Shown here: piece after piece, positions 2,726 to 42,660 of the stretch | How positions within the stretch are numbered: position 1 is the stretch's first letter | Layout: each line of letters opens with the position of its first letter | DNA from: a bacterium | Lineage (GTDB): Bacteria; Bacillota; Bacilli; Lactobacillales; Streptococcaceae | Length of the DNA: 44,897 nt | Assembly: GCA_905221505.1 (NCBI GenBank) | Contig: CAJNDL010000012.1 | Coordinates: 1 to 44,897 of the forward strand | Direction: 5' to 3' | The notes under the pieces: generated by a model | Seen by the model: the letters and a program-made list of their open reading frames with translations, nothing else | Databases searched by the model: none | What the model was told of the DNA's origin: nothing | Position numbers and translations under genes: made by a program

Positions 2726-3714
2726 AAAAAATCGCAGTAGATGCCATGGGGGGCGATTATGCACCTCAGGCCATCGTTGAGGGGGTCAATCAAGCTCTTG
2801 CTGACTTTTCAGATATTGAGGTTCAACTCTACGGAGATGAAAGCAAAATCAAGCAATATCTGACAGCGACAGAGCGCGTCAGCATTATTCATACGGATGA
2901 GAAGATTGATTCAGACGATGAACCTACGAGAGCTATTCGGAAGAAGAAAAATGCCAGTATGGTATTGGCAGCCAAGGCTGTCAAAGAGGGTGAAGCAGAC
3001 GCTGTCCTCTCGGCTGGGAATACAGGTGCTTTGTTGGCGGCTGGATTCTTCATCGTGGGTCGTATCAAGAATATCGACCGTCCTGGGCTTATGTCGACCT
3101 TGCCGACTGTAGATGGGAAGGGTTTTGATATGCTGGACCTCGGTGCCAATGCGGAGAATACAGCCCAGCACCTCCATCAATACGCTGTCCTCGGTTCCTT
3201 CTATGCTAAAAATGTCCGCGGTATTGCGCAACCACGTGTTGGCTTGCTTAACAATGGAACAGAAAGCAGTAAGGGCGACCCGCTTCGTAAGGAAACCTAC
3301 GAATTACTAGTGGCTGATGAAAGTTTGAACTTTATCGGAAACGTGGAAGCGCGTGATTTGATGAATGGCGTTGCAGATGTTGTCGTGGCAGATGGTTTCA
3401 CGGGAAACGCTGTGCTCAAATCCATTGAAGGGACAGCTATGGGAATCATGGGTTTGCTCAAGACAGCTATTACAGGTGGTGGTCTTCGAGCGAAACTAGG
3501 CGCCCTTCTTCTCAAGGATAGCCTCAGAGGTTTGAAAAAACAGCTCAACTATTCAGATGTTGGTGGAGCGGTCTTGTTTGGTGTCAAGGCACCGGTTGTC
3601 AAGACTCATGGCTCAAGCGATGCCAAGGCTGTTTATAGTACAATCCGCCAGATTCGTACCATGCTAGAAACAGACGTAGTTGCCCAGACTGCGCGTGAAT
3701 TTTCAGGAGAATAA
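2722..3714 (+). CDS. plsX: Phosphate acyltransferase PlsX
   Basis: A 330-residue protein starting with the family hallmark [11 protein letters not shown]. It also has [10 protein letters not shown] and LLNNGTE segments that build the active site of the PlsX family (Rossmann-like, related to phosphotransacetylases). PlsX converts acyl-ACP to acyl-phosphate, the first step of Gram-positive phospholipid synthesis, which PlsY then uses. The acyl carrier protein gene lies 5 bp downstream, giving enzyme and carrier in one operon. Full length, no anomalies. Confidence 0.95.
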
Positions 3715-3719
3715 AAGAG

Positions 3720-3956
3720 ATGACAGAAAAAGAAATTTTTGACCGTATTGTGACCATTATCCAAGAGCGACAGGGAGAGGACTTTGTCGTGACAGAATCC
3801 TTGAGTCTGAAAGACGATTTGGATGCTGACTCAGTTGACTTGATGGAGTTTATCTTGACACTGGAAGATGAATTTAGTATCGAAATCAGTGATGAGGAAA
3901 TTGACCAACTGCAAAGTGTAGGCGATGTGGTAGAAGTCGTCAAAAGTAAAGAATAG
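3720..3956 (+). CDS. acpP: Acyl carrier protein (second copy type, plsX-linked)
   Basis: A 78-residue acidic four-helix carrier protein. Ser38 in DADSVDLMEF is the 4'-phosphopantetheine attachment site (the usual DSL motif is DSV here). In streptococci this plsX-linked ACP is distinct from the ACP of the fab cluster and is thought to serve phospholipid acylation or uptake of exogenous fatty acids; that role is knowledge of the family, not visible here. It is the last gene of the operon and is followed by a terminator. Confidence 0.9.
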   Translation: MTEKEIFDRIVTIIQERQGEDFVVTESLSLKDDLDADSVDLMEFILTLEDEFSIEISDEEIDQLQSVGDVVEVVKSKE

Positions 3957-3960
3957 TAAG

Positions 3961-3990
3961 AAGCAACATGCAAGTCGTGTTGCTTTTTTA
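3961..3990 (+). terminator. Terminator after acpP
   Basis: AAGCAACA (3961-3968) pairs with TGTTGCTT (3978-3985), followed by TTTTTA. It separates the plsX operon from the peptide array. Confidence 0.85.
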
Positions 3991-4031
3991 TTGTCAGGAA
4001 AAATAAAAAATTTAGAACTTTTAGTGGGAAT

Positions 4032-4039
4032 TACGAATA
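4032..4039 (+). promoter_or_regulatory. Com-box (SigX late-competence promoter), array unit 1
   Basis: TACGAATA is an exact match to the streptococcal com-box/cin-box, the -10-like element read by RNA polymerase with the competence sigma factor SigX (ComX). It lies 35 bp before the ATG of the first array peptide. The box match is seen; SigX use is inferred. Confidence 0.7.
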
Positions 4040-4066
4040 GATAAGGAAGAAAAAGGAGGAATATTT

Positions 4067-4117
4067 ATGTATCTACCAATCTTGTATCCGTGGTTCATTA
4101 AATTATTTTTGAAATAA
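4067..4117 (+). CDS. Array peptide, copy 1 (16 aa)
   Basis: Encodes MYLPILYPWFIKLFLK. A strong AAAAGGAGG ribosome site (4052-4060) lies six bases before the ATG. The peptide is hydrophobic and aromatic with two lysines (net +2) and no leader or double-glycine site. I do not recognise the family. Candidates are a leaderless toxin or bacteriocin, or a signalling peptide. Confidence 0.65.
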   Translation: MYLPILYPWFIKLFLK

Positions 4118-4192
4118 AATTTAATTTAGTTGTACATTTTCGAATTGTTTTTCGAATAGATAAGTAAGAGGAAACAGAAAGGAGCCTAGTTT

Positions 4193-4243
4193 ATGTATCT
4201 ACCAATCTTGTATCCGTGGTTCATTAAATTATTTTTGAAATAA
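4193..4243 (+). CDS. Array peptide, copy 2 (16 aa)
   Basis: Encodes MYLPILYPWFIKLFLK, identical to copies 1 and 3. AAAGGAG ribosome site at 4178-4184. The spacer upstream is the same as that of copies 3 and 4, so this part of the array expanded recently. Confidence 0.65.
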   Translation: MYLPILYPWFIKLFLK

Positions 4244-4318
4244 AATTTAATTTAGTTGTACATTTTCGAATTGTTTTTCGAATAGATAAGTAAGAGGAAA
4301 CAGAAAGGAGCCTAGTTT

Positions 4319-4369
4319 ATGTATCTACCAATCTTGTATCCGTGGTTCATTAAATTATTTTTGAAATAA
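4319..4369 (+). CDS. Array peptide, copy 3 (16 aa)
   Basis: Encodes MYLPILYPWFIKLFLK, identical to copies 1 and 2, with the same AAAGGAG ribosome site and spacing. Unknown family. Confidence 0.65.
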   Translation: MYLPILYPWFIKLFLK

Positions 4370-4444
4370 AATTTAATTTAGTTGTACATTTTCGAATTGT
4401 TTTTCGAATAGATAAGTAAGAGGAAACAGAAAGGATTCTGGTTT

Positions 4445-4495
4445 ATGTATCTACCAATCTTGTATCCGTGGTTTACTAAATTATTTTTCAAATAA
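4445..4495 (+). CDS. Array peptide, copy 4 (16 aa)
   Basis: Encodes MYLPILYPWFTKLFFK: Ile11 becomes Thr and Leu15 becomes Phe. The ribosome site is slightly weaker (AAAGGATT). The reading frame and the YPWF core are kept. Confidence 0.62.
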   Translation: MYLPILYPWFTKLFFK

Positions 4496-4568
4496 ATTTA
4501 ATTAGTTGTACATTTTCGAAATTTTTTTCGAATAGATAAGTAAGAGGAAACAGAAAGGAGCCTGGTTT

Positions 4569-4619
4569 ATGTATCTACCAATCTTGTATCCGTGGTTTAC
4601 TAAATTATTTTTGAAATAA
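4569..4619 (+). CDS. Array peptide, copy 5 (16 aa)
   Basis: Encodes MYLPILYPWFTKLFLK. AAAGGAG ribosome site. It shares its upstream spacer type with copy 7, showing the higher-order dimer duplication. Confidence 0.65.
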   Translation: MYLPILYPWFTKLFLK

Positions 4620-4694
4620 AATTTAATTTAGTTGTACATTTTCGAAAATTTTTTCGAATAGATAGGTAAGAGGGAAAAGAAAGGAGCCTAGTTC

Positions 4695-4745
4695 ATGTAT
4701 CTACCAATTTTTTATCCGTGGTTTACTAAATTATTTTTCAAATAA
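4695..4745 (+). CDS. Array peptide, copy 6 (16 aa)
   Basis: Encodes MYLPIFYPWFTKLFFK, the same peptide as copy 8 although the codons for Phe6 and Pro8 differ (silent changes). AAAGGAG ribosome site. Confidence 0.65.
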   Translation: MYLPIFYPWFTKLFFK

Positions 4746-4818
4746 ATTTAATTAGTTGTACATTTTCGAAATTTTTTTCGAATAGATAGGTAAGAGGAAA
4801 CAGAAAGGAGTCTGGTTT

Positions 4819-4869
4819 ATGTATCTACCAATCTTGTATCCGTGGTTTTTTAAATTATTTTTTAAATAA
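4819..4869 (+). CDS. Array peptide, copy 7 (16 aa)
   Basis: Encodes MYLPILYPWFFKLFFK, with Phe at the variable position 11. AAAGGAG ribosome site. Confidence 0.65.
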   Translation: MYLPILYPWFFKLFFK

Positions 4870-4945
4870 AATTTAATTTAGTTGTACATTTTCGAAAATT
4901 TTTTTCGAATAGATAAGTAAGAGGAAACAGAAAGGAGTTTGCTTC

Positions 4946-4996
4946 ATGTATCTACCAATTTTCTATCCATGGTTTACTAAATTATTTTTCAAATAA
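4946..4996 (+). CDS. Array peptide, copy 8 (16 aa)
   Basis: Encodes MYLPIFYPWFTKLFFK. AAAGGAG ribosome site. It is the last of the canonical copies before the divergent ninth unit. Confidence 0.65.
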   Translation: MYLPIFYPWFTKLFFK

Positions 4997-5068
4997 ATTT
5001 AATTTAGTTGTACATTTTCGAATTCTTTTTCGAATAAATAAGTAAGAAGAAAAGGAAGGAGATTAGAA

Positions 5069-5122
5069 ATGATTATTGCAGTTATTTATCCAATCTGGCT
5101 ATTTAAGTGGCTTAGAGGATAA
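5069..5122 (+). CDS. Array peptide, divergent copy 9 (17 aa)
   Basis: Encodes MIIAVIYPIWLFKWLRG. It keeps the YP pair at residues 7-8, a Trp and a Lys just after it and a basic C-terminus, but is otherwise different. It has the same promoter-box and ribosome-site (AAGGAGA) layout. The sequence looks like a distant paralogue or a partner peptide of the other eight. It lies 43 bp before the first bacteriocin gene, so transcription probably runs on into that gene. Confidence 0.62.
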   Translation: MIIAVIYPIWLFKWLRG

Positions 5123-5165
5123 ACATTAAACATATAAAAACATATACAAATTGAGGAGAAAAAAG

Positions 5166-5342
5166 ATGACAAATTTTGACAAAATGGAACAGAACTTTGT
5201 AGCTCTTACAGAAGAAGAGTTGGTGAATGTAGATGGGGGGATTGCTTGGGAGGTAGTCTCTGTGGGTATTGCAATTGGTTGGGGGATTTACCAAGTTGGT
5301 GAAGCTGCTGGTAAAACGTTCTACTATATTACTCATCCGTAG
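5166..5342 (+). CDS. Double-glycine bacteriocin-like precursor (BlpU-like)
   Basis: 58 residues. Start chosen at the ATG after GAGGAG (5153-5158), not the TTG at 5151, which lies inside the ribosome site. The leader ends LTEEELVNVDGG at residues 24-25, the classic double-glycine cleavage signal read by C39 peptidase ABC exporters such as ComA/BlpA. The mature part of 33 residues is hydrophobic with two GxxxG motifs (GIAIG and GEAAG), typical of class IIb two-peptide bacteriocins. In pneumococcus the gene near comAB is called blpU; I regard this as that or a close relative. The putative partner is at 5574 and the exporter comAB lies downstream. Confidence 0.8.
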   Translation: MTNFDKMEQNFVALTEEELVNVDGGIAWEVVSVGIAIGWGIYQVGEAAGKTFYYITHP

Positions 5343-5354
5343 TTTTTGATAAAT

Positions 5355-5546
5355 ATGAGCAAGAAAACATTTTGGATTATATTACTCGTTATTACAATTG
5401 TGGTGACTGCCGTTGGTTTAGGATTATCTGCATATAATTATTATGTTTTTGATAGACCTTTTTTCAATAGTACTACTAAAGGATTGTTGTCTGCGTTTGT
5501 TATGAGTGTATTGATGATTATTATTGGTGTATTAAAAGAAAACTAA
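5355..5546 (+). CDS. Small two-TM protein, candidate bacteriocin immunity
   Basis: 63 residues from the ATG at 5355 (a TTG at 5346 is less likely). Two membrane segments, about 5-28 and 45-60, with basic ends (MSKK, KEN). It begins 12 bp after the bacteriocin stop and has no clear ribosome site, so it probably depends on coupling. Position between two bacteriocin genes and its small hydrophobic form fit an immunity protein, but there is no motif that proves it. Confidence 0.6.
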   Translation: MSKKTFWIILLVITIVVTAVGLGLSAYNYYVFDRPFFNSTTKGLLSAFVMSVLMIIIGVLKEN

Positions 5547-5573
5547 TTTTTATTATTAAAATGGAGGATAAAT

Positions 5574-5744
5574 ATGTCAAATTTACAAACTATTGAACAA
5601 AATTATACTACGTTAAGTGATATTGAATTGCAAGAAGTTGATGGTGGAGGAGTGTTACTTTTGGTTGGTGGTGGTATTTTGGCTGTCGGACTGTTAGCTT
5701 GGGGTGCGTATAATGGTTATCAGTCGGCATCACGAGGTGGATAA
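5574..5744 (+). CDS. Second double-glycine bacteriocin-like precursor
   Basis: 56 residues, preceded by TGGAGGA (5562-5568). The leader begins MSNLQTIEQNYTTL and ends LQEVDGG at residues 24-25. It matches the leader of the first precursor in length and pattern, so both should be cut and exported by the same C39 transporter. The 31-residue mature part is Gly-rich and hydrophobic, with GAYNG as a GxxxG motif, so together the two could form a two-peptide bacteriocin. The final residues SASRGG are unusual but are at the C-terminus. Confidence 0.78.
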   Translation: MSNLQTIEQNYTTLSDIELQEVDGGGVLLLVGGGILAVGLLAWGAYNGYQSASRGG

Positions 5745-5783
5745 AAGATGGTAGAATGTTTTTTAGTAAAATAGGAGTCTAGC

Positions 5784-5963
5784 ATGAAAACATTTTTATT
5801 AGGATTCGCTGAGGGATATTTTACCGTATCATTCATTATCTACATCGCAGCGTATTTGATGTTGAAAAATCCGATCAATACCCTATTTTATCCAGAAATT
5901 TACCCCGTTTTATTTGGGCTCTTTTATCTAGGATATAAGGCCAATAAAAAGCAAGTAGAGTGA
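5784..5963 (+). CDS. Small two-TM protein, candidate immunity (59 aa)
   Basis: Begins MKTFLLGFAEGYFTVSF and has two membrane helices (about 12-27 and 41-51) and a basic tail ending KANKKQVE. An AGGAG ribosome site lies at 5773-5777. It directly follows the second bacteriocin precursor and probably belongs to the same transcript. Its function is inferred from position only. Confidence 0.6.
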   Translation: MKTFLLGFAEGYFTVSFIIYIAAYLMLKNPINTLFYPEIYPVLFGLFYLGYKANKKQVE

Positions 5964-6039
5964 GCAGTTAAGAATGACTTGTTAGTCTTCGCTGAAAATA
6001 GTTAGGAATGCATCACATTGGAGTTTAAAAGGAGTAACT

Positions 6040-6153
6040 ATGAATCGTAATTTAGAACGGTGTTATCTATTCTGACTGTGAATAGATCATACCAGAGGTG
6101 GCTTAGAAATAGCAGGGACATTAGTAATTGAAGTAATAAATAGGATGTCGTAA
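6040..6153 (+). pseudogene. Decayed peptide/bacteriocin gene
   Basis: After a good AAAGGAG ribosome site (6028-6034), an ATG opens MNRNLERCYLF. Two in-frame stops follow, and then the same frame continues as IDHTRGG-LEIAGTLVIEVINRMS to TAA at 6151. A start, a Gly-Gly near residue 21 and a hydrophobic continuation in one frame are what a double-glycine peptide gene with two nonsense mutations would leave. Alternatively the 11-codon ORF is chance. Confidence 0.4.
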
Positions 6154-6232
6154 GTGTTACTATCAATGATTTATTTGTTTCAAGCTTGCCTAGGGTGTCA
6201 GTAAAACATCACTTTCCTTTCATATCATATTT

Positions 6233-6263
6233 TAGGCATGACGTTTGTTCTGCCTATTTTTTT
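6233..6263 (+). terminator. Terminator of the bacteriocin block
   Basis: TAGGCA (6233-6238) pairs with TGCCTA (6251-6256) and seven T follow. It insulates the block from the comAB promoter. Confidence 0.75.
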
Positions 6264-6274
6264 ATCCCAAAAGT

Positions 6275-6304
6275 GCATTTGGGAGGTAGATAGGCGCATT
6301 TGGG
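6275..6304 (+). promoter_or_regulatory. ComE-binding site of comAB
   Basis: Two identical 9-bp direct repeats, GCATTTGGG at 6275-6283 and at 6296-6304, separated by exactly 12 bp. This 9-12-9 direct-repeat geometry is the known binding site for phosphorylated ComE at early competence promoters of pneumococcus. A -10 hexamer lies 32 bp downstream. Confidence 0.85.
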
Positions 6305-6336
6305 GAAGAAGTCCAGTTTTTGTTTGGGGATTGGGG

Positions 6337-6342
6337 TAAGAT
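6337..6342 (+). promoter_or_regulatory. -10 element of the comAB promoter
   Basis: TAAGAT at 6337-6342 with no good -35, as expected for a promoter that needs ComE bound upstream. Confidence 0.6.
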
Positions 6343-6363
6343 AGGTATTATCAGATGAGTTTA

Positions 6364-6512
6364 TACTCTTCGAAAATCAAATTCAAACCACGTCAACGTC
6401 GCCTTGCCGTGTAGATGTTACTGACTTCGTCAGTTCTATCTACAACCTCAAAGCAGGATTTTGAGCAACCTGCGGCTAGTTTCCTAGTTTGCTCTTTGAT
6501 TTTCATTGAGTA
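6364..6512 (+). mobile_element. RUP-like miniature inverted-repeat element, copy 1
   Basis: 149 bp from TACTC to GAGTA, with ends TACTCTTCGAAAATCAAA and TTTGATTTTCATTGAGTA forming an imperfect 18-bp inverted repeat, flanked by TA. This fits RUP, a non-coding pneumococcal repeat mobilised by an IS630-type transposase that duplicates TA; the name is from memory. The element sits between the comAB promoter and the comA start, so it lies in the 5' leader of the mRNA. Confidence 0.75.
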
Positions 6513-6537
6513 TAAGTTTAGGAAAAAGGAGATGAAT

Positions 6538-8691
6538 ATGAAATTTGGGAAACGTCACTATCGTCCGCAGGTGGATCAGATGGACTGCGGTGTAGCTTCA
6601 TTAGCCATGGTTTTTGGCTACTATGGTAGTTACTATTCTTTGGCTCACTTGCGCGAATTGGCTAAGACGACTATGGATGGGACGACGGCTTTGGGCTTGG
6701 TCAAGGTGGCAGAGGAGATTGGCTTTGAGACGCGAGCAATTAAGGCGGATATGACGCTCTTTGACTTGCCGGATTTGACTTTTCCTTTTGTTGCCCATGT
6801 GCTTAAGGAAGGAAAATTGCTCCACTACTATGTGGTGACTGGGCAGGATAAGGATAGCATTCATATTGCCGATCCAGATCCTGGGGTGAAATTGACCAAA
6901 CTGCCACGTGAGCGTTTTGCGGAAGAATGGACGGGAGTGACTTTGTTTATGGCACCTAGTCCAGACTACAAGCCTCATAAGGATCAAAATAATGGTCTGC
7001 TCTCTTTTATCCCTATATTAGTGAAACAGCGTGGTTTGATTGCCAATATCGTTTTGGCAACACTCTTGGTAACTTTGATTAATATTGTGGGTTCTTATTA
7101 TTTACAGTCTATCATTGATACCTATGTGCCAGATCAGATGCGTTCGACACTGGGGATTATTTCTATTGGGCTGGTTATCGTTTATATTCTCCAGCAGATC
7201 TTGTCTTATGCTCAGGAGTATCTCTTACTTGTTTTGGGGCAACGCTTGTCGATTGATGTGATTTTGTCCTATATCAAGCATGTTTTTCACCTGCCTATGT
7301 CCTTTTTTGCGACACGTCGTACAGGGGAAATCGTGTCTCGTTTTACGGATGCTAACAGTATCATTGATGCGCTGGCTTCGACCATTCTTTCGATTTTCCT
7401 AGATGTGTCAACGGTTGTCATTATTTCTCTTGTTTTATTTTCACAAAATACCAATCTCTTTTTCATGACCTTATTGGCACTTCCTATCTACACAGTGATT
7501 ATCTTTGCTTTTATGAAGCCGTTTGAAAAGATGAATCGGGATACCATGGAAGCCAATGCGGTTCTGTCTTCTTCTATCATCGAGGACATCAACGGTATTG
7601 AGACTATCAAGTCATTGACCAGTGAAAGTCAGCGTTACCAAAAGATTGACAAGGAATTTGTGGATTATCTGAAAAAATCCTTTACCTATAGTCGGGCAGA
7701 GAGTCAGCAAAAGGCTCTGAAAAAGGTTGCCCATCTCTTGCTCAATGTCGGTATTCTCTGGATGGGGGCTGTTCTGGTCATGGATGGCAAGATGAGTTTG
7801 GGACAGTTGATTACTTATAATACCTTGCTTGTTTACTTTACCAATCCTTTGGAAAATATCATCAATCTGCAAACCAAGCTTCAGACAGCGCAGGTTGCCA
7901 ATAACCGTCTAAATGAGGTTTATCTGGTAGCTTCTGAGTTTGAGGAGAAGAAAACGGTTGAGGATTTGAGCTTGATGAAGGGAGATATGGACTTTAAGCA
8001 GGTTTCCTACAAGTATGGCTATGGTCGAGACGTCTTGTCGGATATCAATTTGACTATTCCTCAAGGCTCTAAGGTGGCTTTTGTGGGAATTTCAGGGTCG
8101 GGTAAGACGACATTGGCCAAGATGATGGTTAATTTTTATGATCCAAGTCAGGGAGAGATTAGTCTGGGTGGTGTCAATCTCAATCAGATTGATAAAAAGG
8201 CTTTGCGCCAGTATATCAACTATCTGCCTCAACAGCCCTATGTCTTTAATGGAACGATTTTGGAGAATCTTCTTTTGGGAGCCAAGGAGGGGACGACTCA
8301 GGAGGATATCTTACGGGCGGTTGAATTGGCAGAGATTCGAGAGGATATCGAGCGTATGCCACTGAATTACCAGACAGAATTGACTTCGGATGGGGCAGGG
8401 ATTTCAGGTGGACAACGTCAAAGAATCGCTCTGGCGCGTGCGCTCTTGACAGATGCGCCTGTCTTGATTTTGGATGAAGCGACCAGTAGTTTGGATATTT
8501 TGACAGAGAAGCGAATTGTCGATAATCTTATGGCTTTAGACAAGACCTTGATTTTCATTGCCCACCGTTTGACTATTGCTGAGCGGACAGAGCAGGTTGT
8601 TGTCTTGAATCAGGGCAAGATTGTTGAAGAAGGAAAGCATGCTGATTTGCTTGCACAAGGTGGCTTTTACGCCCATTTGGTGAATAGCTAG
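6538..8691 (+). CDS. comA: Competence peptide exporter ComA (C39 peptidase-ABC)
   Basis: 717 residues from the ATG at 6538, placed six bases after AAAGGAG (6526-6531... region) and matching the pneumococcal ComA start MKFGKRHY; an upstream ATG run-in lies inside the RUP element and is not used. The N-terminal C39 peptidase has Cys17, His96 and Asp112; it cuts double-glycine leaders. Membrane helices occupy about 160-440. The ABC domain has Walker A GISGSGKTT (about 517), signature ISGGQRQR (622) and Walker B LILDEA (643). With ComB it processes and exports the competence peptide CSP, and in pneumococcus also Blp peptides, so the bacteriocins just upstream are likely clients. Confidence 0.95.
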   Translation: MKFGKRHYRPQVDQMDCGVASLAMVFGYYGSYYSLAHLRELAKTTMDGTTALGLVKVAEEIGFETRAIKADMTLFDLPDLTFPFVAHVLKEGKLLHYYVVTGQDKDSIHIADPDPGVKLTKLPRERFAEEWTGVTLFMAPSPDYKPHKDQNNGLLSFIPILVKQRGLIANIVLATLLVTLINIVGSYYLQSIIDTYVPDQMRSTLGIISIGLVIVYILQQILSYAQEYLLLVLGQRLSIDVILSYIKHVFHLPMSFFATRRTGEIVSRFTDANSIIDALASTILSIFLDVSTVVIISLVLFSQNTNLFFMTLLALPIYTVIIFAFMKPFEKMNRDTMEANAVLSSSIIEDINGIETIKSLTSESQRYQKIDKEFVDYLKKSFTYSRAESQQKALKKVAHLLLNVGILWMGAVLVMDGKMSLGQLITYNTLLVYFTNPLENIINLQTKLQTAQVANNRLNEVYLVASEFEEKKTVEDLSLMKGDMDFKQVSYKYGYGRDVLSDINLTIPQGSKVAFVGISGSGKTTLAKMMVNFYDPSQGEISLGGVNLNQIDKKALRQYINYLPQQPYVFNGTILENLLLGAKEGTTQEDILRAVELAEIREDIERMPLNYQTELTSDGAGISGGQRQRIALARALLTDAPVLILDEATSSLDILTEKRIVDNLMALDKTLIFIAHRLTIAERTEQVVVLNQGKIVEEGKHADLLAQGGFYAHLVNS

Positions 8692-8703: not shown

Positions 8704-10053
8704 ATGAAACCAGAATTTTTAGAAAGTGCGGAGTTTTATAATCGTCGTTACCATAATTTTTCCAGTCGGGTGATTGTACCCATGTCCCTTCTGCTCGTAT
8801 TTTTGCTTGGCTTTGCAACTTTGGCAGAGAAGGAGATGAGTTTGTCAACTAGAGCTACTGTTGAGCCTAGTCGCATCCTTGCAAATATCCAGTCAACTAG
8901 CAACAATCGTATTCTTGTCAATCATTTGGAAGAAAATAAGCTGGTTAAGAAGGGGGAGCTTCTGGTTCAATATCAGGAAGGGGCAGAGGGTGTTCAAGCG
9001 GAGTCTTATGCCAGTCAGTTGGACATGCTTAAGGATCAAAAAAAGCAATTGGAGTATTTGCAAAAGAGCCTGCAAGAAGGGACGGATTACTTTCCAGAGG
9101 AGGATAAGTTTGGCTACCAAGCCACCTTTCGCGACTACATCAGCCAAGCAGGCAGTCTTAGGGCTAGTACATCGCAACAAAACGAGACTATCGCGTCCCA
9201 GAATGCAGCAGCTAGCCAAACCCAAGCCGAAATCGGCAACCTCATCAGCCAAACAGAGGCTAAAATTCACGATTACCAGACAGCTAAGTCAGCTATTGAA
9301 ACAGGCGCTTCCTTGGCCAGTCAGAATCTAGCTTACTCTCTCTACCAGTCCTATAAGTCTCAGGGGGAGGAAAATCCGCAAGCTAAGGCTCAGGCTGTTG
9401 CGCAGGTTGAAGCGCAGCTTTCTCAGTTAGAATCTAGTCTTGCTACTTACCGTGTTCAGTATGCAGGTTCAGGTAGCCAGCAAGGCTATGCGTCAGGTTT
9501 AAGTAGTCAATTGGAATCTCTCAAATCACAACACTTGGCTAAGGTTGGTCAGGAATTGACCCTTCTAGACCAGAAAATCTTGGAGGTGGAGTCAGGTAAG
9601 AAGGTTCAAGGAAATCTTTTAGACAAGGGGAAAATTACGGCCAGTGAGGATGGGGTGCTTCATCTTAATCCTGAGACTAGTGATTCTACCATGGTCGCAG
9701 AGGGAACCCTGCTAGCCCAACTCTATCCGTCCTTGGAAAAAGAAGGGAAAGCCAAACTCACAGCCTATCTCAGTTCCAAAGATGTAGCAAGAATCAAGAT
9801 TGGTGATTCTGTTCGCTATACGACGACTCATGATACCAAGAATCAAATTTTCCTAGATTCTACTATTACCAGTATAGATGCGACAGCTACCAAGACTGAA
9901 AAAGGGAATTTCTTTAAAATCGAGGCGGAGACTAATCTAACTTCTGAGCAGGCAGAAAAACTTCGGTACGGGGTGGAAGGTCGTCTGCAGATGATTACAG
10001 GCAAGAAAAGTTATCTGCGCTATTATTTGGATCAGTTTTTGAATAAAGAGTAA
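8704..10053 (+). CDS. comB: Competence exporter accessory protein ComB
   Basis: 449 residues. It has one N-terminal membrane helix (about 20-42), a long Gln/Ala/Ser-rich coiled-coil region (about 95-290) and a C-terminal beta domain, as in HlyD/membrane-fusion family accessory proteins. It partners ComA. The ATG at 8704 follows AGAGGAG and lies 12 bp after comA, so the two are co-transcribed from the ComE promoter. Full length for the family. Confidence 0.93.
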
Positions 10054-23962: not shown

Positions 23963-24646
23963 ATGCTAAGTAGAGATAAATTAGACTTATATTTAGATGC
24001 ACTAGCAGATGAATATAAAGATTTGTTACGAGCCAGAGTTTTACAGGGTTCTAGAAATGGTGAGTTTTCGTTTAATGAACTGTTAAAATTGGATGCAGCT
24101 GTAAAGAATAACTTAAGGTCGGATTCAAGAATTCGAAAATATAAAAGAATTCAATTATTAGGATTGATATATATTCTATTAGGATTGGTACTTGCATTGT
24201 TTGCACTTATTCAACAGTATTTTCTATATAGTGATAATGATTTTTTTGTACTACTATCTATGATAATGATAATTTTTGGGGTGTATGTAGCTGTATTGTC
24301 GGCAATATTGCAATTACTACCAAGAAATATAAAAAGTAAAGTGAAAAAATTAGGATATACTAGATTGGAAGATGATATTTTGAGTTTATATAGTCGCTTA
24401 GAGTCTATTGTTCAAGTAAAATTGACAAATTCTGAACAGAAAACAATGAGGGAGTCAATTAGTACTTTACGTAATAAAAGAATAATTAGTGAGTCAGAAG
24501 CAAATATTTTATACTCGTTCTTAGAATTACGTAATAGAGCAATCCATTACTCCATGGAGAATGATTATGCGAATAGTGAATCTTATGAAATATTAAGAAA
24601 AGTAAGTATGCTATTAAATAAATTATATAAAACGGAAAGGGCTTAA
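23963..24646 (+). CDS. Membrane-anchored HEPN-like protein, unknown
   Basis: 227 residues from the ATG at 23963, after CAGGAG; the longer frame from 23906 overlaps the previous gene's end and is not preferred. N-terminal helical part (1-60), two membrane helices (about 64-90 and 94-118), and a C-terminal helical domain ending with [11 protein letters not shown]190-N191 to H195 fits the R(N/D)x3H form of the HEPN RNase motif Rx4-6H, followed by an amphipathic helix as in HEPN domains. HEPN proteins are common effectors in toxin-antitoxin and antiphage systems. Nuclease activity is inference from one motif. Confidence 0.6.
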
Positions 24647-39263: not shown

Positions 39264-40280
39264 ATGAAGTTATTGTCTATCGCCATTCCTAGCTATAATG
39301 CCGCGGCTTATCTTCATTACTGTGTGGAGTCGCTAGTGATTGGTGGTGAGCAAGTTGAGATTTTGATTATCAATGATGGATCTCAGGACCAGACTCAGGA
39401 AATCGCTGAGCGTTTAACCAGCAAGTATCCTAACATCGTTAGAGCCATCTATCAGGAAAATAAGGGTCATGGCGGTGCTGTCAATCGTGGCTTGGCAGAG
39501 GCTTCTGGGCGTTATTTTAAAGTGGTTGATAGTGATGACTGGGTGGATCCCCGTGCCTATTTGAAAATTTTGGAGACCTTGCAGGAACTAGAGAGTGAAT
39601 GTCAAGAGGTGGATGCTTTTGTGACCAATTTTGTCTATGAAAAGGAAGGCCAGTCTCGTAAGAAGAGTATGAGTTATGAGTCAGTTTTGCCTGTCCAGCA
39701 GATTTTTGGCTGGGACCAGGTCGGAAATTTCTCAAAAGGCCAGTATATCATGATGCACTCGCTGATTTACCGGACAGATTTGTTGCGAGCGAGCCAGTTC
39801 CAACTGCCTGAGCATACTTTTTATGTCGATAATCTCTTTGTTTTTACCCCCCTTCAGCAGGTCAAGACCATGTACTATCTGCCTGTCGATTTCTATCGTT
39901 ATTTGATTGGGCGTGAGGACCAGTCTGTCAATGAGCAAGTGATGATTAAACGCATTGACCAGCAACTCAAGGTCAATCGACTCTTGGTAGACCAGCTTGA
40001 TTTGTCTAAAGTAAGCCACCCCAAAATGAGAGAATATCTGTTGAATCATATTGAGATTACGACAGTTATTTCTAGCGCCTTGCTCAATCGAGCAGGAACA
40101 GCGGAGCATCTAGCTAAAAAGCGGGAGCTGTGGACCTATATTCAGCAGGAAAATCCAGAGGTCTTTCAAGCTATTCGTAAGACTATGTTGAGCCGTTTGA
40201 CCAAACATTCCGTCTTGCCAGCTCGCAAACTGTCCAATGTCGTCTATCAAATCACCAAATCTGTTTATGGATTTAATTAA
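39264..40280 (+). CDS. Family 2 glycosyltransferase
   Basis: 338 residues. GT-A fold: SIAIPSYNAAAYL, the first acidic motif IINDGSQDQT, and VVDSDDWVD as the metal-binding DxD. No membrane helix, so probably a cytoplasmic enzyme of surface glycan or adhesin glycosylation. The acceptor is unknown; it precedes the pavB gene but is separated from it by a terminator. AAAGGAG ribosome site at 39251-39257. Confidence 0.85.
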   Translation: MKLLSIAIPSYNAAAYLHYCVESLVIGGEQVEILIINDGSQDQTQEIAERLTSKYPNIVRAIYQENKGHGGAVNRGLAEASGRYFKVVDSDDWVDPRAYLKILETLQELESECQEVDAFVTNFVYEKEGQSRKKSMSYESVLPVQQIFGWDQVGNFSKGQYIMMHSLIYRTDLLRASQFQLPEHTFYVDNLFVFTPLQQVKTMYYLPVDFYRYLIGREDQSVNEQVMIKRIDQQLKVNRLLVDQLDLSKVSHPKMREYLLNHIEITTVISSALLNRAGTAEHLAKKRELWTYIQQENPEVFQAIRKTMLSRLTKHSVLPARKLSNVVYQITKSVYGFN

Positions 40281-40395: not shown

Positions 40396-42660
40396 ATGAA
40401 ATTCAATCCAAATCAAAGATATACTCGTTGGTCTATTCGCCGTCTTAGTGTCGGTGTTGCCTCAGTTGTTGTGGCTAGTGGCTTCTTTGTCCTAGTTGGT
40501 CAACCAAGTTCGGTACGTGCCGATGTAGTCAATCCGACCCCTGCTCAAGTCGTGCCAGACGCTGCTTCGGTTAGTGAAAAGAGCGACTTACCAGCAGAAC
40601 TTCTCAAAGAAGCAGTCGATACAGCTCTTCCTTCAGAACAGGCAGACTCAGCACCTAAAGCAAGCTTGGATACTACAAGCTCTCCAGAGAAAGCGGATGT
40701 GGCTGCTAAAGACCAAGTAGTAGCACCAAAAGAAGAAGTGCAAGCAAAACCAGAATCTAAGAAAGAAACAGAAGATGCGGTTAAACCTGCGACAAATCCT
40801 GTTCCTGCAGTTACTGGACAAGACCGTGAAGCAAATGAAGCGCAACCAGCAACTACACCAGCTGAAGTACAAAAAGGCGTAGCCGACAATACCAAAGACA
40901 CAGTAGACGTTCCAGCCACTTACTTGGACAAGGCCAATTTCCCTGGTCCATTCACAGCCGGTGTCAACCAAGTCATTCCATACGAATTCTTCGCAGGTGA
41001 CGGCATGTTGACACGCCTTATCTTGAAAGCATCAGACAAGGCCCCATGGTCAGACAATGGCTCAGCTAAAAATCCCGCCCTTCCACCAGTAGAGAAATTG
41101 GGCAAAGGCCTTTACTTCTATGAAGTAGATTTGGCAGGCACTCAAGATAAATCAGATAAAGAGCTTCTTGACTTGTTGAAACAAAACGGTACGCAAAGCT
41201 ATAAAGCTACCATCAAAGTGTACGGTGCGAAGGACGGCAAGGCAGACTTGAGCAACCTTGTAGCAACTAAAAATTTGGATGTCAACTTGAACGGCTTGAC
41301 TACTCCAGCTGAAGTTCAAAAAGGTGTGGCCGATAATACTAAAGACACAGTAGATGTTCCAGCAACATACTTGGACAAAGCTAACTTCCCTGGCCCATTC
41401 ACAGCTGGCGTCAACCAAGTCATCCCATACGAGTTCTTCGCTGGTGACGGCATGTTAACACGCCTTATCTTGAAATCATCAGACAAGGCCCCATGGTCAG
41501 ACAACGGCTCTGCTAAAAATCCTGCTCTTCCACCAGTAGAAAAATTGGGCAAAGGCCTTTACTTCTATGAAGTGGACTTGGCCGGCACCCAAGGTAAATC
41601 TGACAAAGATCTTCTTGACCTCTTAAAACAAAACGGTACGCAAAGTTATAAAGCTACTATCAAAGTGTACGGCGCAAAAGACGGCAAGGCCGACTTGAGC
41701 AACCTTGTAGCGACTAAAGATTTGGATATCAACTTGAATGGCTTAACTACACCAGCTGAAGTTCAAAAAGGCGTAGCCGACAATACCAAAGACACAGTAG
41801 ATGTTCCAGCAACATACTTGGACAAAGCTAACTTCCCTGGTCCATTTACAGCTGGTGTCAACCAAGTTATTCCATACGAATTCTTCGCTGGTGACGGCAT
41901 GTTGACTCGCCTTATCTTGAAAGCTTCTGACAAGGCTCCATGGTCAGACAATGGCTCAGCTAAAAATCCAGCTCTCCCACCAGTAGAAAAATTGGGCAAA
42001 GGCCTCTACTTCTATGAAGTAGATTTGGCAGGAACTCAAGGTAAATCTGACAAAGAACTGCTTGACCTCTTGAAACAAAACGGCACTCAAAGCTATAAAG
42101 CTACCATCAAAGTGTACGGTGCGAAAGATGGCAAGGCAGACTTGACTAACCTCGTAGCAACTAAAGATTTGGATGTCAACTTGAATGGATATCAGTCTCT
42201 TATTCCGATGCAATCAGGCTTCGTCCCATCTTCTAATGGTTCAGCTATGCCGGCTCCAATGATGAATAGTCATCAAGATGCATCTAATATGAACGCTCAA
42301 ATGCCAAGTGTCAATCAAGATGAGATGAAATCTCAAATGCCAGCTACTAGCCAGGATAAGATGATGCCTAACAAAGAGCAGGATAAAACCATGAATGCTA
42401 GCCAATCAATGGCAACTCCAAGCATGAAACAAGACCAAACTCCAGCAGCCTCAAGCAAAATGTCTGATGAAGGCAAGATGGCGTCTAATAACAAGGTGTC
42501 AAGTCCAATGATGGCTGATCAAATGAAAGAGCAAAAAGACATGCTTCCATATACTGGTGAAGCTCAAACATCAATGGCTACTATTGGATTCTTTGGACTC
42601 GCCTTGGCTGGACTGCTAGGTGGCCTCGGTTTGAAAGCTAAAAAAGAGGAAAATGACTAG
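40396..42660 (+). CDS. pavB: Sortase-anchored fibronectin-binding adhesin PavB
   Basis: 754 residues. Long signal peptide of the YSIRK-like kind (RWSIRRLSVGVASVVVASG, cleavage near VRAD at 43), a Pro/Ala/Lys-rich stalk, three SSURE repeats of 149 residues each (bases 40861, 41308, 41755) and a Met-rich region. The sortase site LPYTG, a membrane helix and the tail KAKKEEND end the protein. SSURE repeats bind fibronectin and plasminogen in pneumococcal PavB. Repeat number varies among strains; three is low. The Met-rich region (19 Met in about 118 residues) is unusual for a wall-spanning part. Confidence 0.92.
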   Translation: MKFNPNQRYTRWSIRRLSVGVASVVVASGFFVLVGQPSSVRADVVNPTPAQVVPDAASVSEKSDLPAELLKEAVDTALPSEQADSAPKASLDTTSSPEKADVAAKDQVVAPKEEVQAKPESKKETEDAVKPATNPVPAVTGQDREANEAQPATTPAEVQKGVADNTKDTVDVPATYLDKANFPGPFTAGVNQVIPYEFFAGDGMLTRLILKASDKAPWSDNGSAKNPALPPVEKLGKGLYFYEVDLAGTQDKSDKELLDLLKQNGTQSYKATIKVYGAKDGKADLSNLVATKNLDVNLNGLTTPAEVQKGVADNTKDTVDVPATYLDKANFPGPFTAGVNQVIPYEFFAGDGMLTRLILKSSDKAPWSDNGSAKNPALPPVEKLGKGLYFYEVDLAGTQGKSDKDLLDLLKQNGTQSYKATIKVYGAKDGKADLSNLVATKDLDINLNGLTTPAEVQKGVADNTKDTVDVPATYLDKANFPGPFTAGVNQVIPYEFFAGDGMLTRLILKASDKAPWSDNGSAKNPALPPVEKLGKGLYFYEVDLAGTQGKSDKELLDLLKQNGTQSYKATIKVYGAKDGKADLTNLVATKDLDVNLNGYQSLIPMQSGFVPSSNGSAMPAPMMNSHQDASNMNAQMPSVNQDEMKSQMPATSQDKMMPNKEQDKTMNASQSMATPSMKQDQTPAASSKMSDEGKMASNNKVSSPMMADQMKEQKDMLPYTGEAQTSMATIGFFGLALAGLLGGLGLKAKKEEND
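40861..42190 (+). repeat. Three SSURE repeats, 447-bp period
   Basis: Repeats begin at 40861, 41308 and 41755, each opening AEVQKGVADNTKDTVDVPATY. Protein copies differ at very few residues (for example Ala/Ser in the LILK-xSDK segment), but the bases differ at many silent sites, so selection holds the protein. Confidence 0.9.

Follow-up and report, generated by a model that had tools for sequence, protein, structure and literature searches.

A family of conserved micro-ORFs behind the tandem SigX-type promoters of a streptococcal competence-associated bacteriocin locus

In the stretch of DNA analysed here (44,897 bases from a mitis-group Streptococcus, hereafter the window), the head of the cab (competence-associated bacteriocin) locus is formed by a nine-unit tandem array in which every unit has a CGAATA box followed by a ribosome site and an unbroken ORF opening with ATG, the boxes lying at 4032-5036. 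What has no mention in the papers searched is the gene behind each promoter, a conserved ORF of 16-17 codons that varies among relatives in the manner of a coding sequence. Comparison with these relatives also brings out what is not visible from the window alone, namely that the peptides come in three types and that the window holds an amplified version of this set. The cab locus has been described as a system that lets competent commensal streptococci lyse their neighbours and take up their DNA, and its repeated promoters have been explained, in the text accessible for that study, as recombination remnants that raise expression (PMC13059744). If every promoter also has a conserved peptide gene behind it, part of the system has been overlooked, a part steadier than its bacteriocins, and constructs that trim boxes delete peptide genes too.

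The array and its surroundings

The gene order of the window is plsX, acpP, the array, a double-glycine bacteriocin block, comA, comB, purC and purL (Table 1). The location between plsX-acpP and comAB, the presence of double-glycine bacteriocin genes and the occurrence of at least two SigX boxes (here nine) make this a member of the cab group, and the placement of the array beside a bacteriocin block and comAB in an earlier note on this DNA agrees with the locus map. No terminator separates the units from the bacteriocin genes, a terminator scan of 3700-6600 listing none, and the window had no match to Rfam at the gathering score.

All nine ORFs are intact, eight of them encoding 16 residues and the ninth a diverged 17-mer. 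The first box is TACGAATA and the other eight are TTCGAATA; elsewhere in the window T[N]CGAATA is found at 24568 on the forward strand and at 40179, 11099 and 2941 on the reverse strand. Successive start codons are 123-127 bases apart, corresponding to a unit of ~126 bp, and units 1 and 2, compared from one start codon to the following one, do not differ at all. Judged against relatives, unit 1 has a promoter half like that of type-1 units (the types are defined below) and an ORF of the array type.

Table 1. Coordinates of the array units and of the flanking features in the window
Feature	Position	Strand	Details
acpP	3720..3956	+	upstream flank; anchor for relatives
Inverted repeat with T-run after acpP	3958..3988	+	probable acpP terminator; absent from the terminator scan list
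Unit 1	4032..4117	+	box TACGAATA 4032-4039, SD 4053, ORF 4067-4117 MYLPILYPWFIKLFLK
Unit 2	4151..4243	+	box TTCGAATA 4151-4158, ORF 4193-4243 MYLPILYPWFIKLFLK
Unit 3	4277..4369	+	box 4277-4284, ORF 4319-4369 MYLPILYPWFIKLFLK
Unit 4	4403..4495	+	box 4403-4410, ORF 4445-4495 MYLPILYPWFTKLFFK
Unit 5	4527..4619	+	box 4527-4534, ORF 4569-4619 MYLPILYPWFTKLFLK
Unit 6	4653..4745	+	box 4653-4660, ORF 4695-4745 MYLPIFYPWFTKLFFK
Unit 7	4777..4869	+	box 4777-4784, ORF 4819-4869 MYLPILYPWFFKLFFK
Unit 8	4904..4996	+	box 4904-4911, ORF 4946-4996 MYLPIFYPWFTKLFFK
Unit 9	5029..5122	+	box 5029-5036, ORF 5069-5122 MIIAVIYPIWLFKWLRG, type 3
Double-glycine bacteriocin precursor MTNFDKMEQNF..VDGG..	5166..5342	+	GG leader by eye; PF10439 E 4.3e-4, under the curated cut-off
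Small hydrophobic ORF	5355..5546	+	perhaps immunity
Second double-glycine peptide precursor	5574..5744	+	GG leader by eye; no Pfam match
Small hydrophobic ORF	5784..5963	+	perhaps immunity
comA, peptidase C39 ABC transporter	6532..8691	+	Pfam
comB	8704..10053	+	named from place and relatives

The earlier description of nine tandem tiny genes, each with its own CGAATA box, is borne out by the nine boxes and nine intact ORFs, and three of its details need amending. The note gives a constant distance from box to ribosome site; measured from box to ATG, the gap is 34 bases in units 2-8, 27 in unit 1 and 32 in unit 9. The single consensus peptide describes units 1-8 (MYLPI[LF]YPWF[ITF]KLF[LF]K), whereas unit 9 encodes MIIAVIYPIWLFKWLRG, a peptide of another type. 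Finally, changes between copies are not confined to silent or hydrophobic swaps, residue 11 being I, T or F.

Three further elements of the window may be recorded: an inverted repeat at 6410-6444 with 16-nt arms and a 3-nt gap, immediately upstream of comA (a BOX element has been reported upstream of comAB); a piece of a DDE transposase at the window edge (10-387; PF13751, E 5.8e-13); and, at 40396-42660, a gene for a surface protein that has a YSIRK signal as well as SSURE domains, three in number, which show up as a 447-bp tandem repeat present three times.

SigX promoters and the published cab loci

The pneumococcal ComX consensus consists of a T-rich stretch and TMCGAATA and extends to the start site (PMC6560143). 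Of the 24 informative positions in this extended consensus, 21-22 are shared by the eight TTCGAATA boxes and 20 by box 1. The score is not decisive by itself, since 21 is also attained at two unrelated places in the window. The TTCGAATA variant has been reported at the S. mitis cab locus, where the link to SigX was made by RT-PCR in a sigX1 sigX2 double deletion (PMC6001120), and the SigX dependence of the homologous S. mitis operon has been shown experimentally (PMC6001120, PMC13059744). The reading of the boxes as SigX-type promoters is thus upheld by the published homologue, and it is very likely that SigX drives the micro-ORFs.

According to the accessible text of PMC13059744, every cab locus in an S. 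mitis collection has at least two SigX boxes, one strain having 38, and cab expression falls once four of five boxes are removed; the proposal there is that the boxes accumulated by recombination and may persist since expression rises. Tandem boxes at this locus, their dependence on SigX and the gain in expression from having several of them are thus on record for S. mitis. The array of promoters, which the earlier note did not know from the literature, is therefore no novelty.

The micro-ORFs stand differently. At 51-54 nt they are too short for the bacteriocin screen of PMC13059744, which was limited to ORFs of 100-300 nt and required a GG motif; PMC11921387 searched for small ORFs that annotation had overlooked. 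There is no mention of the micro-ORFs in the accessible main text of PMC13059744, PMC6001120, PMC11921387, PMC2828477, PMC5729180, PMC6328492 and PMC9426450. A search of the literature text for six peptide strings turned up one unrelated chemistry paper.

Peptide types and distribution among relatives

Relatives were collected with acpP as the anchor, which has matches in 214 of 284 Streptococcus genomes at E <= 1e-15; the best 99 places (>=117 bits) were examined, comprising 80 loci (L063-L142) and 19 added regions, almost all of the latter without a unit match and 16 of them full-length. Together with the window, the first 80 loci make up the 81 in which the micro-ORFs were typed. A scan for the box T[N]CGAATA misses units with CTCGAATA-like boxes; the ORF counts come from a box-independent scan, with chance ORFs excluded through 12 peptide prefixes listed by hand. 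It yielded 219 family ORFs: the array type contributes 90, type 1 (MYVTGFYPWFIKWFLK-like) 45, type 2 (MYLPILLPWFIKWYLK-like) 38 and type 3 (MISVIYPIWFLKWFKA-like) 46. Units follow each other most often in the order 1-2-3 (18 loci), then 1-3 (13) and 1-2 (7), and in all 24 cases compared the type-3 ORF ends 32-57 bases before the start of a GG bacteriocin gene. The basic set probably consists of three paralogues in one copy each, and in the window, which with eight array-type copies followed by one type 3 has the longest run of the 81 loci, the array type has been amplified to eight, probably by recombination between units.

The family is present in 80 of the 99 acpP relatives. At least one family ORF occurs in 76 of the first 80 loci, or 77 of 81 with the window, the exceptions being L080 (where the contig ends), L086, L093 and L097. 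Among the 16 full-length regions of the 19 added, all three types occur in L204, and the other 15 regions are without the family. In the remaining three of the 19 acpP lies near a contig end: the first unit is found there in G234 (L210), and the units of G230 (L212) and G235 are on another contig. G001 was scored as lacking the family yet has a partial match on another contig. In seven of the 15 family-less full-length regions comA and comB are in place, so that competence and ComAB do without the family in these loci. L097 contains a transposase piece and a GG peptide, the latter resembling pneumococcal BlpU. Such a finding is in line with the statement that pneumococci carry blpU at the cab position (PMC6001120).

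A DNA search with the last units had matches in 151 of the 284 Streptococcus genomes at E <= 1e-3, many of them short, and a profile built from 26 typed family peptides matched at least 85 of these genomes at E <= 0.1 among the matches listed, those in G054, G105, G113 and G139 (E 0.03-0.09) being probably due to chance. Among 148 genomes drawn across the order, the profile had three matches, all in Streptococcus. Among the named records, units occur for example in S. mitis SK564, SK579, SK608, SK642 and SK667 and in several S. oralis, and 35 of 40 named records have at least one micro-ORF under a stricter ending rule. Since 80 of the 99 acpP relatives carry the family and the more distant ones are without it, the family marks the mitis/oralis branch.

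L106 and L112 (~505-921) have lost comA and comB, with purC directly following the micro-ORFs, and these are intact although the second box reads CGAATG. In L063 (676-1964) one group of units precedes the bacteriocin genes and a second follows them, as if cassettes entered or left the array via recombination between units. In 16 cases (L066, L073, L077, L084, L087 and others) a different GG peptide gene, MKEH..YEF/YGFVELTSEEL..GG, directly follows a SigX box with no intervening micro-ORF, and an ORF beginning MFLKKEVILLG.. follows a CGAATA box 11 times.

Evidence for coding selection

A frame-blind nucleotide search of the 81 loci, with intact ORFs as queries, found 246 places, of which 219 were the known ORFs, three were further intact copies missed by the patterns (two in L076 and one in L119), one ran into undetermined bases and 23 were broken, 27 outliers having been judged by eye. 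An intact ORF is accordingly found in 222 of 246 nucleotide-similar places. The broken copies comprise 20 of type 3, two of type 1, one of the array type and none of type 2, and it follows from those of type 3 that the time span covered is long enough for copies to decay. In 12 loci (L065, L070, L072, L081, L085, L088, L089, L096, L098, L101, L102 and L108) the last intact micro-ORF is separated from the bacteriocin gene by a type-3 unit without start codon, probably as the result of one event, since the same sequence is common to all 12.

Parsimony changes at codon positions 1, 2 and 3 number 25, 15 and 78 in type 1 (45 sequences), 2, 2 and 14 in type 2 (38), 10, 17 and 74 in the array type (90), and 25, 40 and 69 in type 3 (45), this last series including changes at start and stop columns because the 16- and 17-residue forms align imperfectly. 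Since the units recombine, such counts are non-independent and the codon-phase chi-square values indicative only. Gap columns are absent from the codons but occur in the 5' flank of every type and in the 3' flank of three of the four. In-frame pN/pS is 0.22 for type 1, 0.29 for type 2 and 0.29 for the array type (the missed and broken copies of type 1 and the array type having been added back), as against 1.02, 0.63 and 1.27 for the 3' flank in the same phase, and therefore the peptide sequence of these three types has been selected. Shifted frames of the same types gave 0.76-2.28, with one value undefined for want of a silent change. For type 3 the ratio is 0.50 in the 17-residue form (9 sequences) and 0.25 in the 16-residue form (8 sequences). 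The codon tests cover the first 81 loci, L204, L210 and L212 being outside this set.

This phase-specific pattern is not easily accounted for unless the ORFs are translated and their peptides selected, and the ORFs are almost certainly translated genes. The suggestion in the earlier note that the peptide is under selection, for which the six distinct window copies give a pN/pS of 0.34 that is weak taken alone, becomes strong once relatives are added. Random frameshifts in relatives, which that note regarded as telling against the idea, are not what is found in types 1, 2 and the array type (three broken copies); type 3 is broken in 20.

Properties of the peptides

The peptides are leaderless and rich in Trp, Tyr, Phe and Pro, with a common core P-(x)-W-x-x-[KRE] in which S or T replaces P in a few. 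Their site of action is most likely the membrane, in view of this composition and the lack of a double-glycine leader. Wimley-White interfacial energies of nine peptides range from -5.8 to -7.5 kcal/mol, which fits membrane binding. Hydrophobic moments were not above those of shuffled sequences (p 0.13-0.79), and an amphipathic helix was rejected on this ground. Glu occupies residue 12 in 15 of 90 array-type copies, and the example tested has no net side-chain charge. Both the moments and this Glu speak against an antimicrobial peptide of the classical kind. We recognised no dedicated exporter of leaderless peptides.

A proposed role and its alternatives

We propose that each ~126 bp unit is a complete small gene, made up of a SigX promoter, a ribosome site and a micropeptide ORF of 16-17 codons. 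With the onset of competence, SigX would fire the nine promoters, and transcripts, for which no terminator was found, would read through to the bacteriocin genes, whose output would rise in the way published for five boxes in a row. Each unit would also yield its own peptide, so that the copies multiply the dose, and the peptides would assist competence-linked killing, most likely through an action on the membrane. This chain as a whole, from SigX array to membrane-active accessory, is given a little less than an even chance of being right. A more specific version is held tentatively: leaderless membrane peptides of 16-17 residues, in three types with their own SigX promoters and amplifiable to at least nine genes, might be late-competence products of the mitis/oralis branch that attack or condition membranes so that the competence-linked bacteriocins work. 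If so, the tandem SigX boxes now seen as recombination remnants would be the gene array of the system.

A role as effector is preferred only modestly to one as producer-side helper, owing to the unremarkable moments and the Glu at residue 12. As helpers, the micropeptides would stay in the membrane of the producer and serve a shared step of Cab action such as ComAB export, surface retention or self-protection, which we regard as less likely, yet as the main rival. The micropeptides are conserved while the mature bacteriocins downstream vary between loci, they have no leader for export, the codon tests and pN/pS reveal no sign of an arms race, and Cab is contact-dependent, acting from the surface of the producer (PMC13059744). 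The cab-luc reporter and the SigX data have no bearing on this alternative, however, and amplification of the array suits a bulk product at least equally. Moreover, L106 and L112 keep intact ORFs in the absence of comAB, although this may reflect just a recent loss.

It has also to be asked whether the boxes were kept and piled up for bacteriocin expression alone, with the ORFs as passengers homogenised by gene conversion. Such a reading is near the published view; the drop in cab expression on removal of four of five boxes (PMC13059744), the recombination between units, two of which are identical in the window, and the decay of type 3 in several lineages all speak for it. Nevertheless, it is improbable and insufficient in the face of codon-phase selection with flank and shifted-frame controls and of 222 intact ORFs in 246 similar places. 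The same controls leave chance ORFs sustained by gene conversion unsupported.

A signal peptide, raised in the earlier note alongside a leaderless toxin or fratricin and here conceived as a ComS- or SHP-like pheromone precursor in many copies, would account for a short, hydrophobic and competence-induced ORF with an aromatic C-terminal half. The ComS of S. mutans likewise has 17 residues and contains Trp. We consider this very improbable, as three different peptides lie side by side in up to nine copies; it is made less likely because Pfam recognised no regulator domain in comA and four small ORFs between acpP and comB, the other neighbours being acpP, comB and purC.

Slightly less probable again is a leader peptide acting in cis, whose translation would tune the bacteriocin downstream. 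The distance of 32-57 bases from the type-3 ORF to the bacteriocin start is suggestive, but units 1-8 precede another promoter rather than a gene, and there is no terminator in 3700-6600. Fold z-scores are -0.41 for unit 9 and -0.76, -0.76, -2.05 and -2.09 for four other units, so some may have weak structure; an attenuator was rejected from the terminator scan and the unit-9 value. A type I toxin seems unlikely as well, sigma-70-like sites being not above chance (13 against 12.3 expected), with one on the reverse strand of the array at 5101-5072.

Comparison with known systems

The closest counterpart of the array is the S. mitis cab locus (PMC13059744, PMC6001120, PMC11921387), which has the same place, GG bacteriocins and multiple SigX boxes; unlike the array here, it is described in the accessible text of these papers with no mention of 51-54 nt ORFs. 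The peptides of the array have neither leader nor signal peptide, their 16-17 codons containing no GG and leaving no room for a signal sequence. In this they recall leaderless bacteriocins and phenol-soluble modulins, which are also leaderless, small and hydrophobic and encoded by several adjacent genes. Leaderless bacteriocins usually have at least 30 residues, however, and the array peptides are shorter at 16-17 residues, not clearly amphipathic and without a recognised dedicated exporter. The ComS and SHP pheromone precursors of streptococci are small and hydrophobic, and the array peptides are alike in both respects, but no adjacent Rgg or ComR gene is seen at the array, which moreover holds three types in many copies. 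In its layout the array is reminiscent of the Ldr and Ibs type I toxins of E. coli, where tandem repeats each comprise a tiny hydrophobic ORF with its own promoter; in contrast to these, its units give no sign of an antisense promoter apiece and are predicted to be controlled by the sigma factor of competence.
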